Source: a virus. Taken from it: 27,916 nucleotides of DNA. The position numbers and the translations under genes are program-made. The notes beneath the pieces are model-generated. The model had not been told where the DNA came from. It did no database searches and was given only the letters and a program-made list of their open reading frames with translations. Shown here piece by piece: positions 3,426 through 27,448 of the stretch; position 1 is the first letter of the stretch; every line of letters starts with the position of its first letter. The stretch spans positions 1 through 27,916 of IMG/VR virus record IMGVR_UViG_3300013100_000026; one strand, written 5' to 3'.

Positions 3426-4580
3426 TTACACCTCCGTTACTAGCGGTGCCTCCTTACGAGGCTTGACTGAGAGCAACGCTACAGGATGGATCGGCCTGCC
3501 GTCAAGTACGAGGAACATGTACTTTGCCAGAGCAGGGAAATGCTTTTGTATGGCCACGGCTGCGGTCTTTCTGTCAACCATGTCCAGACGCTCGTGAAGA
3601 ACTGTGCTTTCCAGAGTGTCGATGGCAGAGTACACCGTCGAAACAATCTGAGAAGCCTCCTTCAAGAACTTCTTTCCAGCATTGTCGATGAACTCGTGGA
3701 ACTCTTCAGGCAATTCACGCTTCAGGTCTTGAAGCGCACCGCCCTTCACCATGTGCTCCCAGACAGTCTTTTCAGAAAGTCCAGTCACCAATCGGTGCAA
3801 CGCGATGTAGTCCGGAGACTTCATCTTCGTACGGAAGTCAGGAAGGTCGTTTCCGTCCCTATCCTTACGACTCGTCCAAAGGTACACGAATCCCTCGTCA
3901 CCATCGGGAATTGCAGCGGTGTCACCTGAGTCAAAGTTGGCGAGGATTCGCTTAACCTTGTCAGGCCACTCAGCCTTGTCGAACTCCTGAACATCAGAAT
4001 TGCCGGTCTCGTTGTCGATAACGTCAAGCAGCACTAGGCCCTTGTAGTCACCGTAGTCAACGACAATTCTGTTCTCCGGGTAGATGATTTCGAACAGGTA
4101 GGTCTTACCCTGTAGTGGCGAAAACACCATTTCGGGAGGCAGGTTGTTTGCAGACTCTGCCACTGTCTCTAGGTAGAACTTGGTTGCCCACTCGGCCTGC
4201 TCTGAATGGAATGACCCACGAGTGGAAATCCATTCCTTAGTTGGAGTGCCGTTGCAGTAGTCATCGGTTACGAGAATACCCAGCGATCCGTCCATCTTCT
4301 CCATGCGCAGGGTATGACCGATGGGAGGGTACTGAATCACACCCTCGTCCCAATTGAAGAACTTGGGGAAGGGGCGAGCCAGAACGGTGTTTGTCTCGTA
4401 GTTCCAGACAAGTCCACGACATGCGAGGGTTACGTCGTCCCATGCACGAGCGAACTGAGCCTTTGGCGTGTAGTTGAAGATTTCCCAAGGAAACTTCTCA
4501 TGTGTGCGGGCAGAGACGTTTCCGTCTTCGATATGCCTTGCAAGCAGTTCTGTGTCTAGAATCTCGTCTAGGCTTGTCAT
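3426..4580 (-). CDS. RNA ligase, T4 Rnl1-like
   Basis: 384 aa (T4 Rnl1 is 374). ATP-dependent RNA ligase that seals 3'-OH and 5'-phosphate RNA ends, classically cleaved tRNA anticodon loops. Nucleotidyltransferase motifs in order: motif I EKMDGSL (94-100, AMP-accepting K95), motif III YLFEIIYP (161-168), motif IV EGFVYL (229-234), motif V KMKSPDYI (252-259), then a helical C-terminal domain as in Rnl1. ATGA overlap with the upstream gene and a purine-rich GAGGAAATC before the start. It lies in the same operon as pnk, giving the healing-and-sealing pair known from T4. Confidence 0.92.
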   Translation of the reverse strand: MTSLDEILDTELLARHIEDGNVSARTHEKFPWEIFNYTPKAQFARAWDDVTLACRGLVWNYETNTVLARPFPKFFNWDEGVIQYPPIGHTLRMEKMDGSLGILVTDDYCNGTPTKEWISTRGSFHSEQAEWATKFYLETVAESANNLPPEMVFSPLQGKTYLFEIIYPENRIVVDYGDYKGLVLLDVIDNETGNSDVQEFDKAEWPDKVKRILANFDSGDTAAIPDGDEGFVYLWTSRKDRDGNDLPDFRTKMKSPDYIALHRLVTGLSEKTVWEHMVKGGALQDLKRELPEEFHEFIDNAGKKFLKEASQIVSTVYSAIDTLESTVLHERLDMVDRKTAAVAIQKHFPALAKYMFLVLDGRPIHPVALLSVKPRKEAPLVTEV

Positions 4581-4828: not shown

Positions 4829-5016
4829 CAAATCTCCTTAACGTTGGCAATCTGGAATCGTGTCCACCAGCCGTCCAACCTCAGGTCTAGATATGCCATG
4901 TCTTCCTCAGCCGGTACGTACTTGCGCATGATTGACTGCACTGTATCATAGTCCTCCTGAGTCATGTCAACATGATAGGTAGAGAAGCCGCTGATAAATC
5001 CTTTATGGTCAGCCAT
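4828..5016 (-). CDS. Hypothetical protein, 62 aa
   Basis: Acidic small protein (MADHKGFISGFSTYHVDMTQ at the N-terminus, WWTRFQIANVKEI at the C-terminus). No family recognised and no membrane segment. Start ATG lies 8 nt inside the end of nadR with AGAGGAAG upstream. It links the NAD cassette to the RNA-ligase genes in one transcription unit. A perfect 5-bp hairpin (4962-4966/4971-4975, loop TCAA) lies at +42 to +55. Confidence 0.6.
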   Translation of the reverse strand: MADHKGFISGFSTYHVDMTQEDYDTVQSIMRKYVPAEEDMAYLDLRLDGWWTRFQIANVKEI

Positions 5017-6052
5017 TGTGCTTCCTCTCGTATGCCCTCAGAGGCTCGGAATACGCTTCGAAGTTATTAAAGATCAGAGGAAGTGCCTCAGATGCCCTCC
5101 TGTTCAAGCCCTCCGCGTCGAGAACAATGTAGTTTAGACTGTACTTCTCACACACGTTGACCCAGTATTCATCGCTACCCTCGCGCACATCGCCACCATA
5201 CCGGAGCGGGTCTGCCTCAAATGGGATATTGCTCTTGGTGATCAGGTAAAGGTCTGACTTCTGGCGAATAGCATCAGCGACAAGACCCTTGGGCGGTGCT
5301 CCGATGGTGTCCTGCCAGTGCGGGAATTCCCAGTAGCCTACCGTGGAGAACAGGTCAGTGTCTTGAATGATGAACTGATGCGGCTCCCACATTTGTGCCG
5401 ACTGCTGCAACGCCGACTGACCCTTCCAGATATCTGTCATCGAAGAGACCGTAATCTCATTGACAGTGTTCTCTAGGTACGGACGGGCATACTCTGGAAC
5501 AAAGTATGAGTCTGTAACTGCCGAGAGACGCTTGGCCAGCGTTGTCTTTCCGGTGCTCTCCGCGCCGAAGATTGTAATGCGTCGGGTGAGGTGCTTGGCA
5601 AACTCAGGAGCAATTGCCGACCACATGTCGTAAACATCCTCGCGCACCTTGGTGGCCTTGATTGGCATAATGGAACGCTCAGGATCGTACGGCATGAACT
5701 TGCCATTCATTTCATCGGCCAGACGCTTGCCATAGACCTCAGAGGCAATGTAGGTGTCTCCGGGCTTTGCACCCTTGCCGTTCAGAATGCCTCGCCACAT
5801 GTCCCAAAAGCCGGGAGCGTCAGCGTTCTGCTCCATTTCATGGTAGACGCTGTTGACGCGGGTGTTGGGAAGTGCGTCAGCAATTTCCACAACTGCCTGA
5901 ATACGATGAAGTGGAAATGGCTCAGACGGCTGGGTACAAACGACCACCGTGCTCTTTGTCCCAATTGTCCCGGCGTACTGATCAGCGAACTGAATCAGTG
6001 CCTTGTGACCCTTGGTGACTGGCATTGCTGTCAAAAGTACCCAGACCGTCAT
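5009..6052 (-). CDS. nadR: NadR-like NMN adenylyltransferase / ribosylnicotinamide kinase
   Basis: 347 aa bifunctional enzyme. The N-terminal nucleotidyltransferase (about 1-150) should make NAD+ from NMN and ATP; the C-terminal kinase (about 158-347) should phosphorylate nicotinamide riboside to NMN. Evidence: VLLTAMPVTKGHKALIQFA (nucleotide-binding loop), SEVYG (104-108), IKATKVRED (131-139, the adenylyltransferase signature near the C-end), then Walker A GAESTGKTT (163-171), EYARPYLE (187-194) and QDTD (230-233), all as in NadR. It lacks the N-terminal repressor HTH of enterobacterial NadR. The usual HxGH reads TKGH, so the first His is replaced. AAGGAG in the end of pnuC serves as ribosome-binding site. 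Confidence 0.9.
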   Translation of the reverse strand: MTVWVLLTAMPVTKGHKALIQFADQYAGTIGTKSTVVVCTQPSEPFPLHRIQAVVEIADALPNTRVNSVYHEMEQNADAPGFWDMWRGILNGKGAKPGDTYIASEVYGKRLADEMNGKFMPYDPERSIMPIKATKVREDVYDMWSAIAPEFAKHLTRRITIFGAESTGKTTLAKRLSAVTDSYFVPEYARPYLENTVNEITVSSMTDIWKGQSALQQSAQMWEPHQFIIQDTDLFSTVGYWEFPHWQDTIGAPPKGLVADAIRQKSDLYLITKSNIPFEADPLRYGGDVREGSDEYWVNVCEKYSLNYIVLDAEGLNRRASEALPLIFNNFEAYSEPLRAYERKHNG

Positions 6053-6056
6053 GAGT

Positions 6057-6806
6057 TTACTCCTTGTTTAGATGATCCCAGCCGGGATGCATTTCGATTG
6101 GCTGAACCGCTGCGGGTTGCACCGGCTCAATGCCTGCCTTGCGACTCTGGTTCCAAACATACCACCCGTAGAGCGTGTTGGCAAGGAAGAAGATGTACTG
6201 GACACCAACGATGAACAGGCCAGCGGTGAAGTAGGTGTAGATGGCAAACACGTTGACCACAGCCCATACCGCCCAGTTCTCCAACTTCTTGTTATCCAGA
6301 AGGAACTGAGCCAGAATGGTCAGAACAAGGATAACCGTGTCGGTCCATGCGAACGATCCACCAAAGTGGGTGTTCAGACCAAGAGCACCTGCATACGCCG
6401 CGCCTGTAGCCATAAGGTACACCGGAACCCACTTGATTTCAACCCTAGAGACAGGGCGAGTCGCAGCGTCGGAACGCCAGCGGAACCAGCCGTAAATTAG
6501 GCTGAGTGTCAGGTAACCGTTCAGCACCGCCGATGCCAGCAGACCACTCTGAACAAAAAGGATGCAGTACAGAGCCGTGCTCAGGGCACCGATGGGGTAG
6601 TTGATGCGGCGTTCCTTGACGCACAGGTACGTGCAGGAGTAAGAGGTAAAGACGGCAGCAGCCTCTAGGAGATTGACGCTATCGATCCATCCCGCTCCCA
6701 TGCCGATCAGGTAGGAGAGGCCGGTGGCAACAACAGCCACCACCAGACTCACCAGAATGTCATTCTTCGGCCCAACTCGTGGAGCCACTGCAACTGCGGT
6801 CATCAT
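6057..6806 (-). CDS. pnuC: PnuC-like nicotinamide riboside transporter
   Basis: 249 aa integral membrane protein with about seven hydrophobic helices. Recognised by the second-half signature FLLDNKKLENWAVWAVVNV followed by YTYFTAGLFIV and NTLYGWYVW, plus IYGWFRW in the first half, all typical PnuC features. It imports nicotinamide riboside, which the kinase domain of NadR next door traps as NMN. The reading frame extends upstream to 6902, but the likely start is the ATG at 6806 (ATGATGA overlapping the stop of the upstream gene), with 6803 as alternative; GAGGG precedes both. Confidence 0.88.
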   Translation of the reverse strand: MMTAVAVAPRVGPKNDILVSLVVAVVATGLSYLIGMGAGWIDSVNLLEAAAVFTSYSCTYLCVKERRINYPIGALSTALYCILFVQSGLLASAVLNGYLTLSLIYGWFRWRSDAATRPVSRVEIKWVPVYLMATGAAYAGALGLNTHFGGSFAWTDTVILVLTILAQFLLDNKKLENWAVWAVVNVFAIYTYFTAGLFIVGVQYIFFLANTLYGWYVWNQSRKAGIEPVQPAAVQPIEMHPGWDHLNKE

Positions 6807-8281
6807 GCCCTCGCGTTCTCTCGGACCTCTCGGAATGGGGTCACTGAGTGGAAGATACCGTCCTTCCAGACGGTTGTCAACTCGGACCTCTGTAGAGCCC
6901 ACTCAGAAGCGTCGTCCACAGCGTAGTAGTCACCAGTCTCCATGTTCTTCAACACAGCGATGCGACCACGTAGCGACTTCTTTAGACCGTTGTCGGTCTT
7001 GGGGTTCTTGAAGATCGGCTTTTCCACACCGTTGATGGTGACGTTGGTGGCCTTCATGGCGAACCCGAAAGTGTCACGAGTCTGGTACTGGTAACCGAAG
7101 GAACCCATACCGAAGACGACATTTGCCGAAGCAAAGCCCTTGGCGTCAAGACGCTCTAGAATGTCCTTAGCACGCTCGTAGTTGATGCTGTCTCCGTAGA
7201 TAACACCAATGTGAGAGTCGAGCAACTTGTGACCGGTTTCGGTCTCGGTGCCGCCGAAAATCTCCCAAAGGAGTTCAACGACACCCTTTTCCTCAGGAGT
7301 GCGATCCTCAGGCGAACGGTACGAGCCCTTGATACCACAAAGGATATCAGCAGGATCACCAGAGTCAGGACGAATAACCAACTTACCGTCACGCGCCATG
7401 ATCTTGTCCTTTAGGGCGGGAAGGGTCTCGGTGATGACCTTCCACAAGTCCCACGTGTCAGAAACAACCGAAAGGATACCGCTCGGGTAAAGGTTGATAA
7501 GACGCTCGTAGGTCTCCTGCTCGTCATCCTCACCACCGGCACACATCACAGAGTGCTCGGTAGCAGCGACAGAGCCACCAATGAGGTATTCCTCGGCGTT
7601 GCTAACGTAGAACTTCTCCACGGCTTCAATTGCAGGAATGGTGTCCGTACCCGTGAACTGGGTTAGGTGACCAATGCCCGAAAGGGCAGCCGACTCAACA
7701 CCGGCCATACCACGCATCGAGAAGTCGTGACCCTGCCAGTCCACGAACTCAGCAGGCGATCCCGTCTTTGCAGCATACTCTTCCAGCAGACCGCGCATAC
7801 GCTTGGCGATGGTGGCGCTGGTCATGGGCATCCACAGAACATTGGACATAAGAGTCTCAATGTAGTTGACCAGCCAGAAGAAGTCCGGGTGCGTGTTCTC
7901 GACCGTGAACATCGGAACACGGAGCGGAACGAGAGCGCCCTCAGGAAGAGACTTGAACTCTAGAGGCAGGTAGCCCAGTTCGTGAAGCGCACGAATGTGA
8001 TCAGAACCAATCTCATTCGGGCCGAGGTACGTGTTCATACGACGCTCGTACTCAGCACACACGAAGTCAACGTCTTCATCGAAGAAGTCATCAAACTGGT
8101 CCTGAAGGTATTCCTTTAGGAAATACTGAAGACCGACGTTCACCACGTGATCGATACCATCGATTCGGCTACCGCGCGGGGTCCAGTTGGAGTAGACAAA
8201 CTCCGTTCCTGCGGGGTACTGGCGGCGGTGGTCAACCTTGTAACCATCGCAGAGAGTGATAACATTCAGCATATCATGCAT
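6803..8281 (-). CDS. nadV: Nicotinamide phosphoribosyltransferase-like (NadV/NAMPT)
   Basis: 492 aa, the size of human NAMPT (491). Converts nicotinamide plus PRPP to NMN. Full-length family match: N-terminal DGYKVDHRRQYP, YSNWTPRGSR (30-39), FVDWQGHDFSMRGM (179-192), TEHSVM with the phosphorylated-type His (H243), VIRPDSGDP (302-310, PRPP/phosphate binding), VIYGDSIN and a C-terminal SLRGRI region. The start overlaps the upstream prs homologue by 8 nt. Close relatives of this family in phages can also act as nicotinamide-ADP-ribose transferases (NARP1-type), which sequence reading alone cannot exclude. Confidence 0.93.
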   Translation of the reverse strand: MHDMLNVITLCDGYKVDHRRQYPAGTEFVYSNWTPRGSRIDGIDHVVNVGLQYFLKEYLQDQFDDFFDEDVDFVCAEYERRMNTYLGPNEIGSDHIRALHELGYLPLEFKSLPEGALVPLRVPMFTVENTHPDFFWLVNYIETLMSNVLWMPMTSATIAKRMRGLLEEYAAKTGSPAEFVDWQGHDFSMRGMAGVESAALSGIGHLTQFTGTDTIPAIEAVEKFYVSNAEEYLIGGSVAATEHSVMCAGGEDDEQETYERLINLYPSGILSVVSDTWDLWKVITETLPALKDKIMARDGKLVIRPDSGDPADILCGIKGSYRSPEDRTPEEKGVVELLWEIFGGTETETGHKLLDSHIGVIYGDSINYERAKDILERLDAKGFASANVVFGMGSFGYQYQTRDTFGFAMKATNVTINGVEKPIFKNPKTDNGLKKSLRGRIAVLKNMETGDYYAVDDASEWALQRSELTTVWKDGIFHSVTPFREVRENARA

Positions 8282-9137
8282 AGTTTGTCAGTCCTTCCGT
8301 GACCTTTAGCGTGATGACGCGAGGGTCGTTGATTTCAACAGAGTCGGTGGAAATGAGGTTGTTGTAGTGCTGCAAAAGGGTTGCAGTGCCCTTGGTGAAA
8401 AGTCCGTGCGTGACGAACAGGTCGAGAGTCACACCATATACCTTGTGAGCCTCTTCTGCAAGTCCGATGAACGTGCCGCCCGCGTCACACAGATCGTCCA
8501 CCACGAGGTAGTGGGAATCAGGGATGAGGTGATCGAAGAAGTGGAAGCCGCTCAACTTGTTGGTGTGCGGGTCACGAGTCTTGCCAGCCTGAAACACCGG
8601 CAGTTCGAAGTGTGCAGCAGCCTCCTGAGCACGCTTCTGAGCCCCAAGATCGGGCGCAATAATGCCAGCGTAGTCCTTGACGTGAACACCAGCCGTCTCC
8701 ATGCAGTGGCGCAGGCGAATTTCTGGGACCACGAGCCTGTCGATCAGGGCGGTGGTGGCCAGAGAGTGAGGATCAAGAGTGACAACATTCTGGAAGTTTC
8801 TCTCATTGACCATCTTGGCAACGCTCTTTAGAGTAAAGAGCCAGTCGCCTTCCCACTTGATGCGATCCTGTCGGGCACCGGGGACACGAGGAAGGACAAG
8901 GCTCCGAATCGGATTGCCCCTCTCAGCAAAAGAGTCCGCTACGAACATATGCGTAACGAACTCGTGTAGTGATTCCGGACGGCTAATCATGAATGTGTCG
9001 TTATGACTGGCATTGAAGTTCCAGACAGTCTCTAGATCAACAACAGGGGTGTTATCTGGATACATACCCAGATGAACGGTTTCAGCGACACGATTAATAG
9101 AAAAGCGATCCGTCTTGTTTCCAATTTGTAGTGACAT
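8274..9137 (-). CDS. Ribose-phosphate pyrophosphokinase homologue (Prs-like)
   Basis: 287 aa. Motifs: RQDR (89-92) for ATP binding, LDPHS (121-125) as the catalytic His region, and LVVDDLCDAGGTF (211-223), the PRPP-loop signature. The N-terminal half diverges from cellular Prs, as in other phage versions. It should supply PRPP, the co-substrate for the adjacent NadV; in NARP1-type phage pathways a Prs-like enzyme instead makes ADP-ribose pyrophosphate. Start chosen at 9137 because AGAGAG precedes it; an in-frame ATG at 9155 lacks a ribosome site. First gene of the NAD operon, downstream of tRNA-Cys. Confidence 0.87.
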   Translation of the reverse strand: MSLQIGNKTDRFSINRVAETVHLGMYPDNTPVVDLETVWNFNASHNDTFMISRPESLHEFVTHMFVADSFAERGNPIRSLVLPRVPGARQDRIKWEGDWLFTLKSVAKMVNERNFQNVVTLDPHSLATTALIDRLVVPEIRLRHCMETAGVHVKDYAGIIAPDLGAQKRAQEAAAHFELPVFQAGKTRDPHTNKLSGFHFFDHLIPDSHYLVVDDLCDAGGTFIGLAEEAHKVYGVTLDLFVTHGLFTKGTATLLQHYNNLISTDSVEINDPRVITLKVTEGLTNYA

Positions 9138-9192
9138 TGTTTTTCTCTCTTTCATTTGAGTACCGGCGTTTGTCGAACCCGGTAGATTTTAA

Positions 9193-17495: not shown

Positions 17496-17537
17496 GAAAA
17501 GGGCTGGTGCGCCCGAAAGCATCCACCAGCCCTTTTT
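17496..17537. terminator. Strong intrinsic terminator, symmetric
   Basis: AAAAGGGCTGGTG (17497-17509) pairs with CACCAGCCCTTTT (17524-17536) around a 14-nt loop, with T runs in both directions. It ends the tRNA-Ser transcript on the minus strand. Confidence 0.9.
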
Positions 17538-20981: not shown

Positions 20982-21274
20982 CTGTCCTCCTTGATATTGA
21001 AAAGGTTGCCCAGAACCATTCTGGCTCGTAGGTGGTCGTTGGGATGCTTGTGAGGTGACATGAAGAATCCACGTCGCCTGTTCTCAGACTCAGCATCGAT
21101 GCAAATTCCTGCGAGGTAGAAGACCCCGAACAGGAACATCATGATCACTCTAGCAACCCAGAAGCCGAGTGTCAACTTGAAGTTGTAGTAGTGAATGTGC
21201 TCGTACGCGTTGATCCTGACAGCAATGTATCCTGCAAACCAGTACAGCGCCAGCCCTACGAATAGCCAGATCAT
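20978..21274 (-). CDS. Membrane protein, 98 aa
   Basis: Two hydrophobic segments: IWLFVGLALYWFAGYIAV at the very N-terminus and FWVARVIMMFLFGVFYLAGICI in the middle; the C-terminal third is basic and soluble (ENRRRGFFMSPHKHPNDHLRARM). ATGA overlaps with both neighbours place it firmly in the RNA ligase/membrane operon. No family recognised. Confidence 0.73.
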   Translation of the reverse strand: MIWLFVGLALYWFAGYIAVRINAYEHIHYYNFKLTLGFWVARVIMMFLFGVFYLAGICIDAESENRRRGFFMSPHKHPNDHLRARMVLGNLFNIKEDR

Positions 21275-21963
21275 TGGCGGAAGTCCACGTGCTTGATCTT
21301 GGTGATGACGCGCTTACCAGATCGAGTGAACAGGGGAACCTTGGGAACAGCGATAAGTCCCTCAGCCTCAAAGTCCCCCCACGCTGACCTCATACCAGCG
21401 TGTCCATTGGATCGCATGTCGATGAAGTTGCCAGCACGGTCATGAGCAAATCCGTTTGCAACCATGGCAAAACCGCTCCACAGGTTACCAGTGAAGACCA
21501 CCGGCACAGTGTCGAAGCCAGTCTTGTCACCAAAGTCATCCACGTCCTTGCGAATAAGCCAGAAGTCTCCAACGCGTACGTCGAAAGCCACGAATCGTGG
21601 AGCATCACCGTACTTTCCACCGCCATTGATCTTTGGACCATAGCCCTCACCATACACGGTAAGTTCACCAATGTCGTGCTGCTCCATGACGGCAACCACG
21701 TTGTCGCTCAGTGAGGAACACAGGTCTTCAAGGTGGTGCAGCAGTGGCTTGGGAGTCTGAGCATTGTCAGTGCGTCCAGCAATGTTGAAACCACCATAGC
21801 GGTTGAACGTCAGACGAATGTTGGTACCGTCCACCTTCTCGGTGAACTCCCACTCATTCTCTGCGAGATATTCCAGTTCGGGCATGCACCAATCACCTTG
21901 GAGCATTACGCCCTTCTTGTCGCGCTTGTATGGCGCATTGATCTTGTGGTACTCGTCACTCAT
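21271..21963 (-). CDS. RNA ligase, Rnl2-like single-domain
   Basis: 230 aa. Nucleotidyltransferase motifs in order: I EKVDGTN (42-48, AMP-accepting K43), III VYGEGYG (103-109), IIIa FVAFDV (124-129), IV EGLIAVP (201-207), V ITKIKHVDF (220-228). It stops right after motif V, so it lacks the C-terminal domain of T4 Rnl2 and is a minimal catalytic core like several phage ligases. Should seal nicked RNA; together with the Rnl1-like ligase at 3426-4580 the phage has two different sealing enzymes. Start overlaps the upstream gene by 8 nt. Confidence 0.9.
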   Translation of the reverse strand: MSDEYHKINAPYKRDKKGVMLQGDWCMPELEYLAENEWEFTEKVDGTNIRLTFNRYGGFNIAGRTDNAQTPKPLLHHLEDLCSSLSDNVVAVMEQHDIGELTVYGEGYGPKINGGGKYGDAPRFVAFDVRVGDFWLIRKDVDDFGDKTGFDTVPVVFTGNLWSGFAMVANGFAHDRAGNFIDMRSNGHAGMRSAWGDFEAEGLIAVPKVPLFTRSGKRVITKIKHVDFRQ

Positions 21964-22312: not shown

Positions 22313-22933
22313 CTAGTCAGTAGGTTCTTCGTCGTTGACCATAGCATACAGTTCGTCGTCCTGAATGTCAACAGCCTGCAAGATTCTCTTGGCAGCGGCT
22401 GGACGGTCCATCAGGAACAGTTGAATGGCGAGAGCCAGTGCGGCGTCTCGTGCCTTCAGGTTTTCAATGTCTACGTCTTCGTAGTCTGGCAGTTCCTTGT
22501 TGATCATGTCCATCATCTTGACTTGCTCATCAGGAGACAGAGCCTTCAGCATGAACAAGAGATACGCTAGCCTATCTGCGGCTGGTGTGTCAAGTAGGTC
22601 TTGATCTACATTACCGTCGAAGTTTTGGTAGGTTTGGAACTCCTGTGGGTCTGGCGTTTGTCCACTTGCTACCGCGCTCTTTGGGGCAGGATAGAAGTAA
22701 CGTGACTTGCCTCCGTGTGGACGGGATGCCTTATGCATATCAACGTCCACACGCCAGAATCCGGCGACTACTCCATCGAGAATCGCCTCGGCCAATGCCT
22801 CTTTGGCAGATGGCCTCAACTCGTCAAAGTCCAATACGTCCCAATCCTCCTGAGTCATGTGACTCAGGAGGACGAGGCGTACTGAAACGACGTGCTTTTG
22901 CATTGGTGCGAATGCACCCTTCCAGAAGTTCAT
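22313..22933 (-). CDS. Hypothetical protein, 206 aa
   Basis: N-terminal half is mixed (HVVSVRLVLLSHMTQEDWDV, then RPSAKEALAEAILDGVVAGFW), C-terminal half helical and acidic (RLAYLLFMLKALSPDEQVKMM, then AALALAIQLFLMDRPAAAKRIL). No family recognised, no membrane helix. The start ATG overlaps the upstream TGA (ATGA); TATAAT ends six bases before it, so it may also be expressed as a leaderless mRNA. A perfect 12-bp inverted repeat (22845-22872) lies 62-89 nt into the gene. Confidence 0.72.
   Translation of the reverse strand: MNFWKGAFAPMQKHVVSVRLVLLSHMTQEDWDVLDFDELRPSAKEALAEAILDGVVAGFWRVDVDMHKASRPHGGKSRYFYPAPKSAVASGQTPDPQEFQTYQNFDGNVDQDLLDTPAADRLAYLLFMLKALSPDEQVKMMDMINKELPDYEDVDIENLKARDAALALAIQLFLMDRPAAAKRILQAVDIQDDELYAMVNDEEPTD
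22845..22872. repeat. 12-bp perfect inverted repeat inside a coding sequence
   Basis: TCCTCCTGAGTC (22845-22856) and GACTCAGGAGGA (22861-22872), loop ATGT. Lies 62-89 nt into the 206-aa gene and encodes LLSHMTQED. Confidence 0.95.
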
Positions 22934-23208: not shown

Positions 23209-23748
23209 CTATCCGAACGCTATGCGCTCTATGGCAGATATCCTTGGAACGTGGCCAATAACACACATCCAGCAGTGGTAGGTGCTGTGGTCACATTCCT
23301 TCGGAGCCTTCTGTAGAACGGCAGGCCATGCGGCTGGCTGTGGGCCAGACTCACACTCCGGACAGAACTCGCCGGGGTACAAAAGCCTACCGCTGTCACA
23401 CATTTCACACCATTCAGGTCTGGGCAACTTGGCACTTCTGACCCTACCACGCTTTGGCAGTTCACCATTCTCGTCGTAGGTCAAGTCGGACTTGCGGGCG
23501 TTGCACACACGGTGCATCAATTGCAGGTTGTCCAAGGCCCAGATTTCCTCGTAGGTCCATCCATCTGCGTTTGCCTTCACCTGTGGGTAGATGTGGTCAA
23601 GGCTCAGGCCGTAACGAGAGTCGGGGTTTTCATCAAATGGCAAGCGACAACCGGGGTACTGACACTTGTTACCGTCACGCTCGATCAGCGCGGCGATAGC
23701 CAACTGTCTGTCAAATCGTATTCGGTCACCGACTTCGACTAGTGTCAT
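23209..23748 (-). CDS. HNH endonuclease
   Basis: 179 aa. HNH core: Cys pair at 29/34 (CQYPGC), LDHIYPQ with H52, ALDNLQLMHRVCNARKSD with N74, H79 and N83. A second zinc module (WCEMC...FCPEC) and a C-terminal CxxC follow. Such HNH proteins beside terminase genes often assist DNA packaging by nicking; a homing role is the alternative. Start chosen at the ATG at 23748 (AGGA upstream); a GTG three codons earlier has no room for a ribosome site. Confidence 0.85.
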   Translation of the reverse strand: MTLVEVGDRIRFDRQLAIAALIERDGNKCQYPGCRLPFDENPDSRYGLSLDHIYPQVKANADGWTYEEIWALDNLQLMHRVCNARKSDLTYDENGELPKRGRVRSAKLPRPEWCEMCDSGRLLYPGEFCPECESGPQPAAWPAVLQKAPKECDHSTYHCWMCVIGHVPRISAIERIAFG

Positions 23749-23753
23749 ACAAA

Positions 23754-24017
23754 TCACTTCCTAGATGCATAGATTTCTGCGGCAAGATCGCGCAGAAACT
23801 TGCCATAATGCTTGGTGATATTACCAGCAGGCAGACCGCCTGTCAAGGCGTACTCATGGAGCAAGTCTTGCAAGTTGAAGAGACCTGAAGGACAAAGATG
23901 AACCTCAGTGACTTCTTCTAGTCTTGCCAACATTAGAGGTTTTGGAATATGCTTTACAGAACATTTACATTCCTCTTCAGTATCTTGTACTCTTATTATT
24001 TGATAATTTAGACTCAT
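23754..24017 (-). CDS. Hypothetical protein, 87 aa
   Basis: SLNYQIIRVQDTEEECKCSV, then ARLEEVTEVHLCPSGLFNLQ and a helical end (KHYGKFLRDLAAEIYASRK). No family recognised. The ATG at 24017 lies within the -10 box of the promoter at 24016-24045, so mRNA from that promoter cannot use it; the next in-frame ATG would give 59 aa. Read-through from terL could use the longer start. Confidence 0.6.
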   Translation of the reverse strand: MSLNYQIIRVQDTEEECKCSVKHIPKPLMLARLEEVTEVHLCPSGLFNLQDLLHEYALTGGLPAGNITKHYGKFLRDLAAEIYASRK

Positions 24018-24045
24018 TCTAGCACACGCTTCCAAATCCAGTCAA
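24016..24045 (-). promoter_or_regulatory. Promoter after terL
   Basis: TTGACT (24040-24045), 18-bp spacer, TAGAAT (24016-24021). The -35 box contains the terL TGA stop. It overlaps the start of the next frame, which makes that start uncertain. Confidence 0.6.
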
Positions 24046-25928
24046 CCCCCGATCACCTTCATACCGTCGATGAACGAAGACAGAATGTCTGGCATCTTAG
24101 TATCTTGTGGTGCTCGGATAGGTGCAATGTTGGCCTGAGCATCTGTAGTTTCATAGACACCGGCCTCCTTCTTTCTCAGTTCCTCTTGCTCACGTTCCTT
24201 TGCGATCATGTCGGTAAGGGTGTATACTTCCACATCACCGTATGCTTCTCTTGGGGTGTGAGCGATGGAGTTGAAGATGGACCCACAGATGGAGTCAGAA
24301 AAGTCCTTCGTTCCTGAGCGGCTGTGGTCAATCTTGTCGGCCTTCGTAATTCTCAGGGCCATCAACTCGTCCACAAACAGGTCGTTCTGCGGTGCTGAGA
24401 GACGTTCCTCGTGAACCACCATTGCCATGTCTGTGTAGTGCTTCTTGGCTACGGAAAGAATCTCTGACTGCAAACCGTAACGTCGAAGTTCGTTCATGAT
24501 ATCGTGAGACTGCCAACGGTCAAAGGTCACCAGACCAATGTCGAATCCGCGTCTCTGTAGCGACAGGATGAACTCACGAACCTCGGTGAAGTCAACGGTG
24601 TATTCGCTGGTAGGTGTCCACCAACGTACCACATCGACCTTGATGATCGGTGCTGGCTCCGTCATGTTACCGCCGATGTTTCTGGTCATCCACTTGTCCA
24701 CGTGAGACATGGTGACAACACAGCGGTCCTGCTTCTGTGCAAGGTCAACGTGAATGTAATACTTCTTGCCTTCCACCGGAACGAACCATTCGTTGAATCT
24801 GTTCTGCTCATCGATACCGTTCTGGCCACGGAAAGCCTGCTGCATCTTCTCGCGGTCCTTGAAGAATGCATCGATAGCCTCGGGAGGCATACATGCGTAA
24901 CGAGAAAGAGCATCGACCTTGTTGGACAAGAAATCCTCCATGTAATTCTCGATGCGCTTGGTTGGGTTTACCTCCCACGATGGACGCTTCAGAGCAAATA
25001 CACGGGGCTCTGCGTAGCGTACGATGTGGTCCTCGTCCCACGTGATGGTGAACTCATTGCCCTGCGTACCGGGCGGTAGGTCAGGATTGATTTGGAATGT
25101 GTGCTCTCTCGGAAGAACATGCACCTCACCCTCAACCTTGATTGCAGCATCGTCCTTTCCGTACAGTGCTTCGTTGTAGCGCTTCTGGATGAAGTCTCCC
25201 TTGAATCGTGGGAAGGACAGCAGAACCAACTTGCCCACATCGGGGAATCGGCTGGTTACAGATGCTCGATACATGTCGTAGATTCCCTGAGCGGTCTTGC
25301 CGTGCTCGTTACCAGTGTTGGAGTCGAGAGCAAAACCTGAAATCTCGTCAAGCACGACATACAGAACGTTGTATCCCTCAAAGCCCTCACGCTCTGAGTG
25401 ACCAGAGTAAACGTTGATGTTCTTGATGAACTCCATGTGACCCTGACGCTCGGTGTACTTGTTGAGAAACCACGGGCTGTCCTTGATTCGCTTCTTGAAG
25501 TTTTCAAAGAACACGCGCCGCGCCTGATCAGCGTTGATAGCGATGTTCAGAATGTCGATAGAGTCATTGCGAGGCTTGTCATAATACTTTGCCGGGTCAC
25601 GAAGACACAGCAAGAGGTACACGATGTATGCACAAGCGATGGTGGAAAGAAAGTCCTTACCAGAGCCCTTTCCCAACTGTGCGATGACTTCACGAACTGT
25701 GTTTTTCCAGCGCCTCGTTCCCTCTACCTCTCCATACAGACTGATCAGCGTGTGGTTGAAGTAGATTTGGCTGGATGCCTCAATCAACTGGTACTGGTAC
25801 TCGGACAAAGGCGTATCACCCATGTCTAGGTACTTCTCATCTGTCACAAATCGTCTAATGTCCACCGGGCGTTCTTCGAAGTCGTCACCTCCCACCGCGT
25901 TCATTAGATCAGTAAAATTAAGAGCCAC
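24042..25928 (-). CDS. terL: Terminase large subunit
   Basis: 628 aa. ATPase-nuclease motor that packages phage DNA. ATPase: Walker A-like GKGSGKD (86-92), Walker B LYVVLDEIS (189-197, D194-E195), coupling region LVLLSFP (235-240). RNase H-type nuclease: acidic residues D395 (YIHVDLAQ), D470 (VTFDRWQ) and D542/D545 (KDFSDSI). Full length for the family. GTG start with AAGGGGG upstream, overlapping the probable terS by 11 nt. Two HNH genes flank the terminase pair, common in phages. Confidence 0.95.
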   Translation of the reverse strand: MALNFTDLMNAVGGDDFEERPVDIRRFVTDEKYLDMGDTPLSEYQYQLIEASSQIYFNHTLISLYGEVEGTRRWKNTVREVIAQLGKGSGKDFLSTIACAYIVYLLLCLRDPAKYYDKPRNDSIDILNIAINADQARRVFFENFKKRIKDSPWFLNKYTERQGHMEFIKNINVYSGHSEREGFEGYNVLYVVLDEISGFALDSNTGNEHGKTAQGIYDMYRASVTSRFPDVGKLVLLSFPRFKGDFIQKRYNEALYGKDDAAIKVEGEVHVLPREHTFQINPDLPPGTQGNEFTITWDEDHIVRYAEPRVFALKRPSWEVNPTKRIENYMEDFLSNKVDALSRYACMPPEAIDAFFKDREKMQQAFRGQNGIDEQNRFNEWFVPVEGKKYYIHVDLAQKQDRCVVTMSHVDKWMTRNIGGNMTEPAPIIKVDVVRWWTPTSEYTVDFTEVREFILSLQRRGFDIGLVTFDRWQSHDIMNELRRYGLQSEILSVAKKHYTDMAMVVHEERLSAPQNDLFVDELMALRITKADKIDHSRSGTKDFSDSICGSIFNSIAHTPREAYGDVEVYTLTDMIAKEREQEELRKKEAGVYETTDAQANIAPIRAPQDTKMPDILSSFIDGMKVIGG

Positions 25929-26466
25929 TGATTTCCCCCTTGATTACCCCATCATCATCTGGCACGGCTGGTGCCTGTCCGAAGATGCGTGAGATACCCT
26001 CCATGATGAAGAGTTTTGTCTCTGGGTACTTTGTAGCAACTTCCGTGAGCAACTTTCTAATTGCCTCGGCGTGTTCTTCCATTTCTGCCAACTGGTCAGC
26101 AATACCAGAGTCGTCATACATACCGGCTTTTTGCAGTGTCTCTTGGCGCTTTGCCTCAATATCAGCAATATTCTTCAGCACGGTTGCACGAGTCTTGTTT
26201 TCGACTTCTGTATCAACGATCAGCCACATTTCCTTGATGATCATGTCATAGTGGCGATCCATTGACGACAGCGCTTCCATGGCACGCTCTTGAATGTCAG
26301 GTCGATTCTGTGCGATCTGCTTCCATTCATTGATGTAGTGCACCACGTCCTTGCGCTGCATACCGAGTTCCTTGGCAATGGTCGCTGGATGCTTCGTACC
26401 CGTAAGCAGTTTCTCAACGACTCTATTCATTTCGTCGTAATATTCCGCAGTTTGTAGTTCAGTCAT
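25918..26466 (-). CDS. terS: Probable terminase small subunit
   Basis: 182 aa, immediately upstream of terL and overlapping it. N-terminal helix-turn-helix-like segment TKHPATIAKELGMQRKDVVHYINEW (about 24-48) for DNA recognition, then long helices (EALSSMDRHYDMIIKEMW, RATVLKNIADIEAKRQETLQKAG) suited to oligomerisation, and an acidic tail. This three-part plan and the position are typical of small terminases that recognise the packaging site. No name-level motif, so the call rests on context and fold. Start ATG overlaps the upstream TGA. Confidence 0.75.
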   Translation of the reverse strand: MTELQTAEYYDEMNRVVEKLLTGTKHPATIAKELGMQRKDVVHYINEWKQIAQNRPDIQERAMEALSSMDRHYDMIIKEMWLIVDTEVENKTRATVLKNIADIEAKRQETLQKAGMYDDSGIADQLAEMEEHAEAIRKLLTEVATKYPETKLFIMEGISRIFGQAPAVPDDDGVIKGEISGS

Positions 26467-26708
26467 TTTGTCTTCCTTCTGCTTCTCTTCAACTGGACGA
26501 CGCTAAGTAATCTTCCAATTGGAATCATTCTCTTCTCTCCCCGCACGTGGACCAGCAGATAGTCCTTATTATTGTCGAGGTTGTGGACGATGCACTCAAA
26601 TTGCACCAGCCCATATATGCCACTAACCTTCAGAAATGCACCAGACTTTACAGTCTCATTTCTGAAGGTTAGTGTGTGTGAAATTGTAGCATTTTCTGTG
26701 TACGACAC
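26463..26708 (-). CDS. Hypothetical protein, 81 aa, with giant hairpin in its gene
   Basis: Strand-rich protein ending in a basic tail (QLKRSRRKTK); segments LTFRNETVKSGAFLKVSG, GLVQFECIVHNLDN and DYLLVHVRGEKRM suggest a small beta barrel like the one at 4577-4828. Start chosen at GTG 26708, preceded by AAGGAAAGG; the frame opens further upstream inside the HNH gene. Overlaps terS by 4 nt. Codons 12-30 are formed by an exact 18-bp inverted repeat (26621-26674), which constrains the protein to read HTLTFRNE...AFLKVS. Confidence 0.68.
   Translation of the reverse strand: MSYTENATISHTLTFRNETVKSGAFLKVSGIYGLVQFECIVHNLDNNKDYLLVHVRGEKRMIPIGRLLSVVQLKRSRRKTK
26621..26674. repeat. 18-bp perfect inverted repeat inside a coding sequence
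   Basis: Bases 26621-26638 are the exact reverse complement of 26657-26674; between them AGACT/AGTCT (26643-26647/26652-26656) adds an inner 5-bp stem with loop TTAC and a CACC bulge. It lies 155 bp upstream of the probable terS and within the 81-aa gene. Confidence 0.95.
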
Positions 26709-26724
26709 AGCAGTTACCTTTCCT

Positions 26725-27297
26725 TCAGAGGTTACTCCTATATTGTACCATATCGTTAATGTATTCAATGAAGTCTTGGTAGACCATGCTGTTTTTAGCC
26801 CTATTGCAGATGTAACAGCACGGTACGCAATTCTGAATTACGTATCCAATGTCATTGTTCAGTCGATCAAGACCGTTATACTTGAAATCCCTGACTAGCC
26901 ATTCTCCGGGGCGCTTGGAAGGAACGCTGATCGAGTTGCGATCAGATCGCCCGCAGTAATGACAGGGGGCATGGATGGCATGCTTGAACCAGTCCATGGG
27001 TAGATCGAATTCTCTGCCCGCTCTGTTGGCGTCAGACTTGACCCTCTTGTAGACAGCACGCTCGCCCACGAGTGGCTGAACGCTGCGCTTGCACGCAGAG
27101 CACCGTAGTTGTTCTGGCTCATAAATGTCATACTCCTTGGACAAGGAGAATCCATTTCCACATTTGCACATGAAGTCAAAGGTGTTACCGCTGCCGCCAA
27201 CAACCTGCGAATACTCAGAAACCCCATCCACGAAGGACGGGGTTCTGAGTGCGGTGCGCAACCTCACTTGTGACCACCATTGGCTGTAGGTGCCCAT
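26725..27297 (-). CDS. HNH endonuclease with zinc knuckles
   Basis: 190 aa. N-terminal zinc-finger-like CKCGNGF...CSACKR (44-70), a basic linker, then the HNH core: CHYCG (112-116), KYNGLDRLNNDIGY (139-152; the GLDR-xN-xGY signature), CVPCCYICNRAKNSM (157-171). Typical free-standing phage HNH/homing-type enzyme next to packaging genes. ATG with GAGGGG upstream. The first part of the gene contains a 12-bp inverted repeat with one bulged base (27213-27250). Confidence 0.87.
   Translation of the reverse strand: MGTYSQWWSQVRLRTALRTPSFVDGVSEYSQVVGGSGNTFDFMCKCGNGFSLSKEYDIYEPEQLRCSACKRSVQPLVGERAVYKRVKSDANRAGREFDLPMDWFKHAIHAPCHYCGRSDRNSISVPSKRPGEWLVRDFKYNGLDRLNNDIGYVIQNCVPCCYICNRAKNSMVYQDFIEYINDMVQYRSNL
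27213..27250. repeat. 12-bp inverted repeat inside HNH gene
   Basis: ACTCAG+AACCCC (27213-27218, 27220-27225) pairs with GGGGTT+CTGAGT (27239-27250) with a single bulged A; TCC/GGA extends it. Lies 48-85 nt into the HNH coding sequence. Confidence 0.9.
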
Positions 27298-27434
27298 ACA
27301 GACCCCTCAAAGCGCCACTGACGATTCAACTTGTTTCCGCAATGATTGCATCGCTGAGTGTCACGATCATCGATCTTGACAATTCTATCCTCGTCCTTGT
27401 CGCATGCAAGGCACGTGTAACTATAGTTCGGCAT
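27264..27434 (-). CDS. FmdB-type zinc-ribbon protein, 56 aa
   Basis: MPNYSYTCLACDKDEDRIVK then DTQRCNHCGNKLNRQWRF and EGSVWAPTANGGHK. CLAC and CNHC form a zinc ribbon; the MPxYxYxC start and the F.GS.WAPT ending are the marks of the FmdB/CxxC_CxxC_SSSS regulatory zinc-ribbon family, common in actinobacterial phages. Function unknown; nucleic-acid or protein binding likely. ATG with AAAGAG upstream; overlaps the HNH start by 34 nt. Confidence 0.75.
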   Translation of the reverse strand: MPNYSYTCLACDKDEDRIVKIDDRDTQRCNHCGNKLNRQWRFEGSVWAPTANGGHK

Positions 27435-27448
27435 AATCTCTTTCTGTG

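Follow-up and report, generated by a model that had tools for sequence, protein, structure and literature searches.

The question raised by this locus is why a long, perfect inverted repeat should lie within a protein-coding sequence beside the terminase genes of a virus, and whether it acts at the level of DNA, at that of RNA, or not at all. The source is a large soil actinophage-like virus, of which a stretch of 27,916 nt, here called the window, was analysed. Positions 26621-26638 and 26657-26674 are exact reverse complements of 18 nt, fully complementary as the earlier note on this DNA had stated, with an 18-nt spacer between them (26639-26656). On the mRNA, which is read from the minus strand, the 5' arm is CACTAACCTTCAGAAATG (26657-26674, codons T-L-T-F-R-N-E) and the 3' arm is CATTTCTGAAGGTTAGTG (26621-26638, codons A-F-L-K-V-S-G).

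The region is indeed coding. The gene concerned (26463-26708, minus strand; GTG start at 26708, stop at 26463, 81 aa) matches phrog_1338 (E=4.8e-5), and DUF7246-like homologues occupy the same place before the terminase small subunit gene, terS, in dozens of phages, such that this gene is a near-constant neighbour of terS. Its match to Pfam DUF7246 (E=0.029) lies under the gathering score (15.2 bits vs a cut-off of 27); homology to that family is still indicated by the place of the gene and by the alignment. The protein lacks the N-terminal ~25 aa of most homologues, and its predicted structure (pLDDT 84) is a small beta barrel that ends in a basic C-terminal tail. Its best structural matches are BAH/SH3-like barrels (Foldseek E of at least 0.027, VIA Z ~9), too weak for a function to be assigned.

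The minus-strand gene order runs from an FmdB-like zinc-ribbon protein, a conserved upstream neighbour (27264-27437; phrog_1076, E=1e-5), through an endonuclease VII-like HNH endonuclease (26725-27297; phrog_1035, E=5.6e-14) and the DUF7246-like gene to terS (25918-26466; phrog_9507, E=1.6e-47) and the terminase large subunit gene, terL (24042-25928; phrog_2 and others, with a DNA match to Streptomyces phage terminases). From the gene spacing, all five are presumed to share one polycistronic message. The position of the repeat just before a probable terS was correctly called in the earlier note, given the phrog_9507 match and the adjoining terL; homologues of this terS are annotated as terminase small subunit in several Streptomyces phages, and it also matches large Rhodococcus phages. 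The structure model of terS was poor, and structure comparison with it gave no useful match.

Of the isolated phages, the nearest are Stanwilliamsviridae (cluster BE) that infect Streptomyces, in which the order is FmdB - DUF7246 - terS - terL, in some cases with one small gene before terS. The HNH gene is absent from the FmdB/DUF7246 junction of these Streptomyces relatives and was therefore probably inserted there within the present clade. HNH genes occur at several places near terminase genes: between terS and terL in Muntaha (L115:4156-4518), directly downstream of terL in the window itself (23209-23757; phrog_9645), and, in another relative, overlapping the DUF7246 gene out of frame (L010:2553-3344).

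The 18-bp stem is the longest perfect inverted repeat in the window and ties as the longest in the 131-kb genome of a sibling virus. Codon-resampled windows contain a mean of 0.14 perfect stems of at least 12 bp; extrapolated with a ~4-fold fall per added pair, this gives ~3e-5 stems of at least 18 bp per window, in agreement with the negligible chance expectation in 28 kb that had been asserted. The 5' arm starts 34 nt past the start codon of the DUF7246-like gene, and the stem ends ~155 nt upstream of the terS start. Both arms contain rare codons (CTA 13%, AGA 15%, AGT 9%). Two other repeats were seen in the window: a 13-bp perfect stem at 17497-17536 (AAAAGGGCTGGTG/CACCAGCCCTTTT), terminator-like in both directions, adjoining a tRNA-Ser gene and also found in the sibling genome, and a 13-bp perfect palindrome with a 2-nt centre at 22845-22872, inside the open reading frame 22313-22933, a matching stretch of which was not found in relative G001.

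How far such a stem is surprising depends on the protein. Third codon positions pair only with third positions across the stem, and when the codons for the peptides L-T-F-R and F-L-K-V-S are set antiparallel, their first and second bases are complementary. By virtue of this register, conservation of the protein keeps 12 of the 18 pairs almost free of charge, and the information sits in the third positions. Given the protein and the codon usage of the phage, the probability of an 18/18 stem is 4e-5.

Besides the window, only three distinct phage genomes with this variant of the DUF7246-like gene were found. Searches by stem pattern and by peptide pattern, together with profile scans over viral contigs and a single profile scan over genome contigs, returned only the same four contigs, and the IMG/VR scans gave nothing further. 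The comparison covers four genomes (the window, L005, L006, to which L007 is identical over this stretch, and L008), which are effectively two lineages. The sibling, L005 (IMGVR 3300013105_000002, 131 kb), is 99% identical and differs at three positions in the stem-bearing 306-nt open reading frame; two of these fall in the 5' arm, one giving a G-U pair and one a C-A mismatch, neither of them compensated. In L006 and L008 the DUF7246-like proteins are 78-80% identical and the terS proteins 56-57% identical. A core of 14 pairs, CTAACCTTYAGARA in the 5' arm and TTTCTRAAGGTTAG in the 3' arm, is kept in all relatives having this gene variant. Within it, L006 and L008 carry U-A in place of one C-G pair, each arm having changed at a synonymous third position, and, on the coding strand, G-U in place of one A-U pair. 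Of the third-position pairs, the two outer ones have been lost in L006 and L008 and are disrupted or weaker in almost all relatives; this decay implies that the exact 18 bp is in part an accident. The loop varies at most third codon positions. The 5-bp inner hairpin described in the earlier note (AGACT-GTAA-AGTCT, 26643-26656) is present in the window and its sibling, but the same form is not kept in L006 or L008.

Further out, the stem is absent from L010, despite an HNH gene at the same place, and from all more distant homologues examined (L069, L071-L096), in which the protein is kept; a hairpin general to this gene place is thereby ruled out. The comparison of relatives for compensatory changes, as suggested in the earlier note, thus gave a divided result: near relatives keep the core with one such change, whereas distant ones retain the protein and lose the pairing. 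The same division applies to the findings which that note had held would tell against it, in that the distant relatives have lost the pairing and the packaging ends of cousin phages lie elsewhere, but the near relatives retain the core.

Synonymous positions are better conserved in the core than elsewhere in these genes. Seven of its nine arm codons are identical in a three-way comparison, vs 279 of 755 (37%) in the surrounding genes (binomial p ~0.016), and the probability that independent synonymous drift would have left the core intact in both relatives is 0.012-0.033, over a period in which the loop between the arms changed at most synonymous sites. With the protein constraint allowed for, retention of the core at p ~0.01-0.03 is suggestive, not conclusive. 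A shuffle control of pair counts in the four sequences gave no significant covariation (80/500). With third-position tests at this level and a shuffle test that is not significant with four sequences, the proposition that the hairpin is a maintained element is rated as evenly balanced.

The principal rival is a tolerated accident, in which the complementarity of LTFR and FLKVS gives most of the pairing, the third positions were matched by chance, and there has been too little time for them to drift. With the codon box taken as used, the protein accounts for 12 of the 18 pairs; the probability of the 14-pair core, G-U included, given the protein is 0.7%, which is not negligible over many genes and genomes, and the site was picked out of an unspecified number of windows. 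The free decay of the outer pairs also fits, and so does the chance of core retention, which is 1-3% for both relatives and rises to 5-10% for one. Against this stand the 18/18 match at 4e-5 given the protein, the use of rare codons in both arms, the concerted synonymous change, and the stability of the arms while the loop drifts. An accident is regarded as possible, though doubtful. A different route to perfect arms is template switching at a quasipalindrome, whereby replication copies one imperfect arm onto the other, producing perfect arms and concerted changes without any RNA function. The mechanism is documented for hairpins and coding inverted repeats (PMC8794818, PMC8604942), and it would account both for the concerted C-G to U-A pair and for the perfect 18 bp in the window vs the imperfect ends in the 99% identical sibling. 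The outer pairs in the sibling and relatives have, however, not been homogenised, only a single concerted change is seen, and both arms encode an unchanged peptide throughout the clade; this explanation is judged unlikely.

A third class of explanation places the function in the DNA, with TerS, the HNH enzyme or a regulator binding inverted half-sites, e.g. for terminase recognition or homing. Symmetric half-sites do adjoin terS and the HNH gene, and the flanks immediately beyond the arms are also conserved. The proposal in the earlier note of a pac/cos recognition site for the terminase fares badly with respect to the isolated relatives (Stanwilliamsviridae, Streptomyces cluster BE), which supply the genome-end evidence in place of this clade itself. 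In Wakanda the terminal repeats are direct and 1,773 bp long, and terS lies at 61 kb in 127 kb; the BE1 phages likewise end in direct repeats, of ~11 kb, and their ends were mapped from reads (PMC5764925). Terminase recognition is disfavoured since the terS-terL pair of these relatives is mid-record, ~60 kb from either end. The hairpin is, moreover, absent at the homologous place in Wakanda and the BE phages and in most IMG/VR relatives, including phages with the same TerS family, and a pac/cos site was rejected on the genome ends of the relatives and on the failure to find the site elsewhere. No second copy of the exact half-site exists in the window or in the sibling or G001 genomes, and a repeated operator was rejected on that ground; the A-T to G-T change is easier to reconcile with RNA than with DNA. 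Overall, a DNA-level site of any kind is considered improbable. The relative contigs of 131 kb and 127 kb (L101/L102 and L103/L104) have identical ends of 123 and 127 bp, typical of circular assembly overlap.

At the RNA level, a coding-strand stem of 14-18 bp with a folding energy of -26 to -32 kcal/mol is predicted in all four variant-bearing genomes. In 4/4 genomes a more stable fold is predicted for the coding strand than for its complement (-31.7/-30.3, -30.3/-26.7, -25.8/-21.6 and -25.9/-18.4 kcal/mol), and this, with the tolerance in that RNA of the A-T to G-T change, makes the evidence lean to the mRNA over a DNA site. Codon-resampled versions are as stable in 1/5000 cases for the window, and in 53/5000 and 44/5000 for L006 and L008. 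The preferred reading is of a lineage-specific RNA hairpin, embedded in the DUF7246-like coding sequence on a presumed polycistronic message, although its chances are put at about half. Its role is probably local, in the control or processing of RNA, and not in the packaging of DNA.

If so, the hairpin would be a cis-acting element of the HNH-DUF7246-terS-terL mRNA. It would most likely be a site at which an RNase III-type enzyme, specific for double strands, processes the mRNA or sets its stability, or else it would pace ribosomes just past the start codon; the effect would be that the packaging genes are uncoupled from the HNH portion of the transcript. RNase III processing sites occur in polycistronic mRNA, and the predicted duplex of 14-18 bp in the four genomes exceeds one helical turn on the transcript, as is expected of such sites. 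An RNase III site, which the earlier note had listed among its options, is thus possible on the basis of the predicted fold. The corresponding enzyme in Streptomyces is AbsB (PMC2936110). As in RNase III sites, the stem is long and double-stranded, and the message that would carry it is presumed to be polycistronic; unlike them, the hairpin here is within coding sequence and is a putative site, predicted from its fold. A more elaborate version, which seems rather improbable, is that the element is processed into a small structured RNA, or forms a co-transcriptional switch with its own Shine-Dalgarno (SD) sequence, possibly having arisen after the HNH insertion, and that it thereby coordinates the endonuclease section of the operon with the packaging section.

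Translational control in a simpler form was also considered. The SD region of the DUF7246-like gene, GAAGGAAAGG (26717-26726, minus strand), overlaps the HNH stop codon and can pair with the 5' arm, at a strength that is not unusual, so the SD region and the 3' arm might compete for the 5' arm. Such a switch looked attractive because three strands covary: CTRAAGG at the SD, in the 3' arm and, as its complement, in the 5' arm changes together between the window and its relatives, and the alternative pairing is predicted at -11.9 to -13.7 kcal/mol in 4/4 genomes. The SD change is, however, also just a swap of the HNH stop codon (TGA/TAA), and equal or stronger pairing of an SD to downstream sequence occurs in 25 of 171 genes of the sibling. 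The 18-bp stem is, furthermore, far more stable than the SD pairing, which would leave the SD nearly always free. An SD-sequestering switch is unsupported, a control over 171 and 166 genes having shown such pairing to be common, and is regarded as very improbable. As for the suggested translational switch controlling terS, nothing ties the hairpin to terS specifically, the stem ending well upstream of the terS start. An intrinsic terminator was likewise rejected, there being no U run: the stem is followed by GGCATATATGG, the loop is of 18-22 nt, and no terminator was called at the site.

Rfam covariance models at curated thresholds found only tRNAs in the window. Its 28 kb hold 18 tRNA genes together with genes for RNA repair (a polynucleotide kinase and two RNA ligases) and NAD salvage (NAMPT, NMNAT and PRPP synthetase), located at 1815-2702, 3426-4580, 21271-21963 and 5009-9155; the RNA-repair, NAD-salvage and tRNA genes are likely a counter-defence set.

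Hairpins beside phage HNH genes and structured RNAs from terminase genes are both on record, in positions other than that of the present hairpin. In T-even phages, RNA hairpins control the homing-endonuclease genes mobE, segB and I-TevI (PMC2988022), and the present case shares with them a phage operon in which a stable hairpin adjoins a free-standing HNH gene. By contrast, the T-even hairpins sequester the endonuclease's own ribosome binding site from an upstream position, whereas the hairpin here is inside the next gene, ~50-105 nt downstream of the HNH stop codon, a position that does not fit sequestering of that type. Structured cabRNA from the terS-terL region of staphylococcal phages is sensed by CBASS cyclases (PMC10686824); in both cases coding sequence of a phage terminase region can give a hairpin-forming RNA, and there is no sequence conservation between phage groups. 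Unlike cabRNA, the present hairpin is upstream of terS in another gene, is a predicted structure, and likely belongs to a different host phylum.

Among the related phages, Wakanda, Muntaha, Circinus and BillNye (L056:5225-5260; L115, L116, L117) have a GC-rich hairpin (GGACCGGC...GGGCCGGTCC) in the intergenic space that separates the DUF7246 gene from terS, with a stem identical in two genera, varying flanks and no U tract. It resembles the hairpin of the window in being a stable stem near terS, but differs in being non-coding and GC-rich, with a short core, a short loop and unrelated sequence. The presence of this unrelated, invariant hairpin directly before terS implies that more than one stem is found in this stretch among these phages.

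The hairpin is a modest finding. Since third positions pair with third positions, only these are informative, and claims of compensatory change in coding hairpins need to be tested against the peptide effect. If the hairpin is not a maintained element, it still illustrates that a perfect inverted repeat within a gene can be two-thirds explained by the peptide. If it is real, it would be a small, testable example of selection acting at once on a protein and on RNA structure, within a phage packaging operon and in the same region of the genome that yields immune-sensed structured RNAs in other phages.
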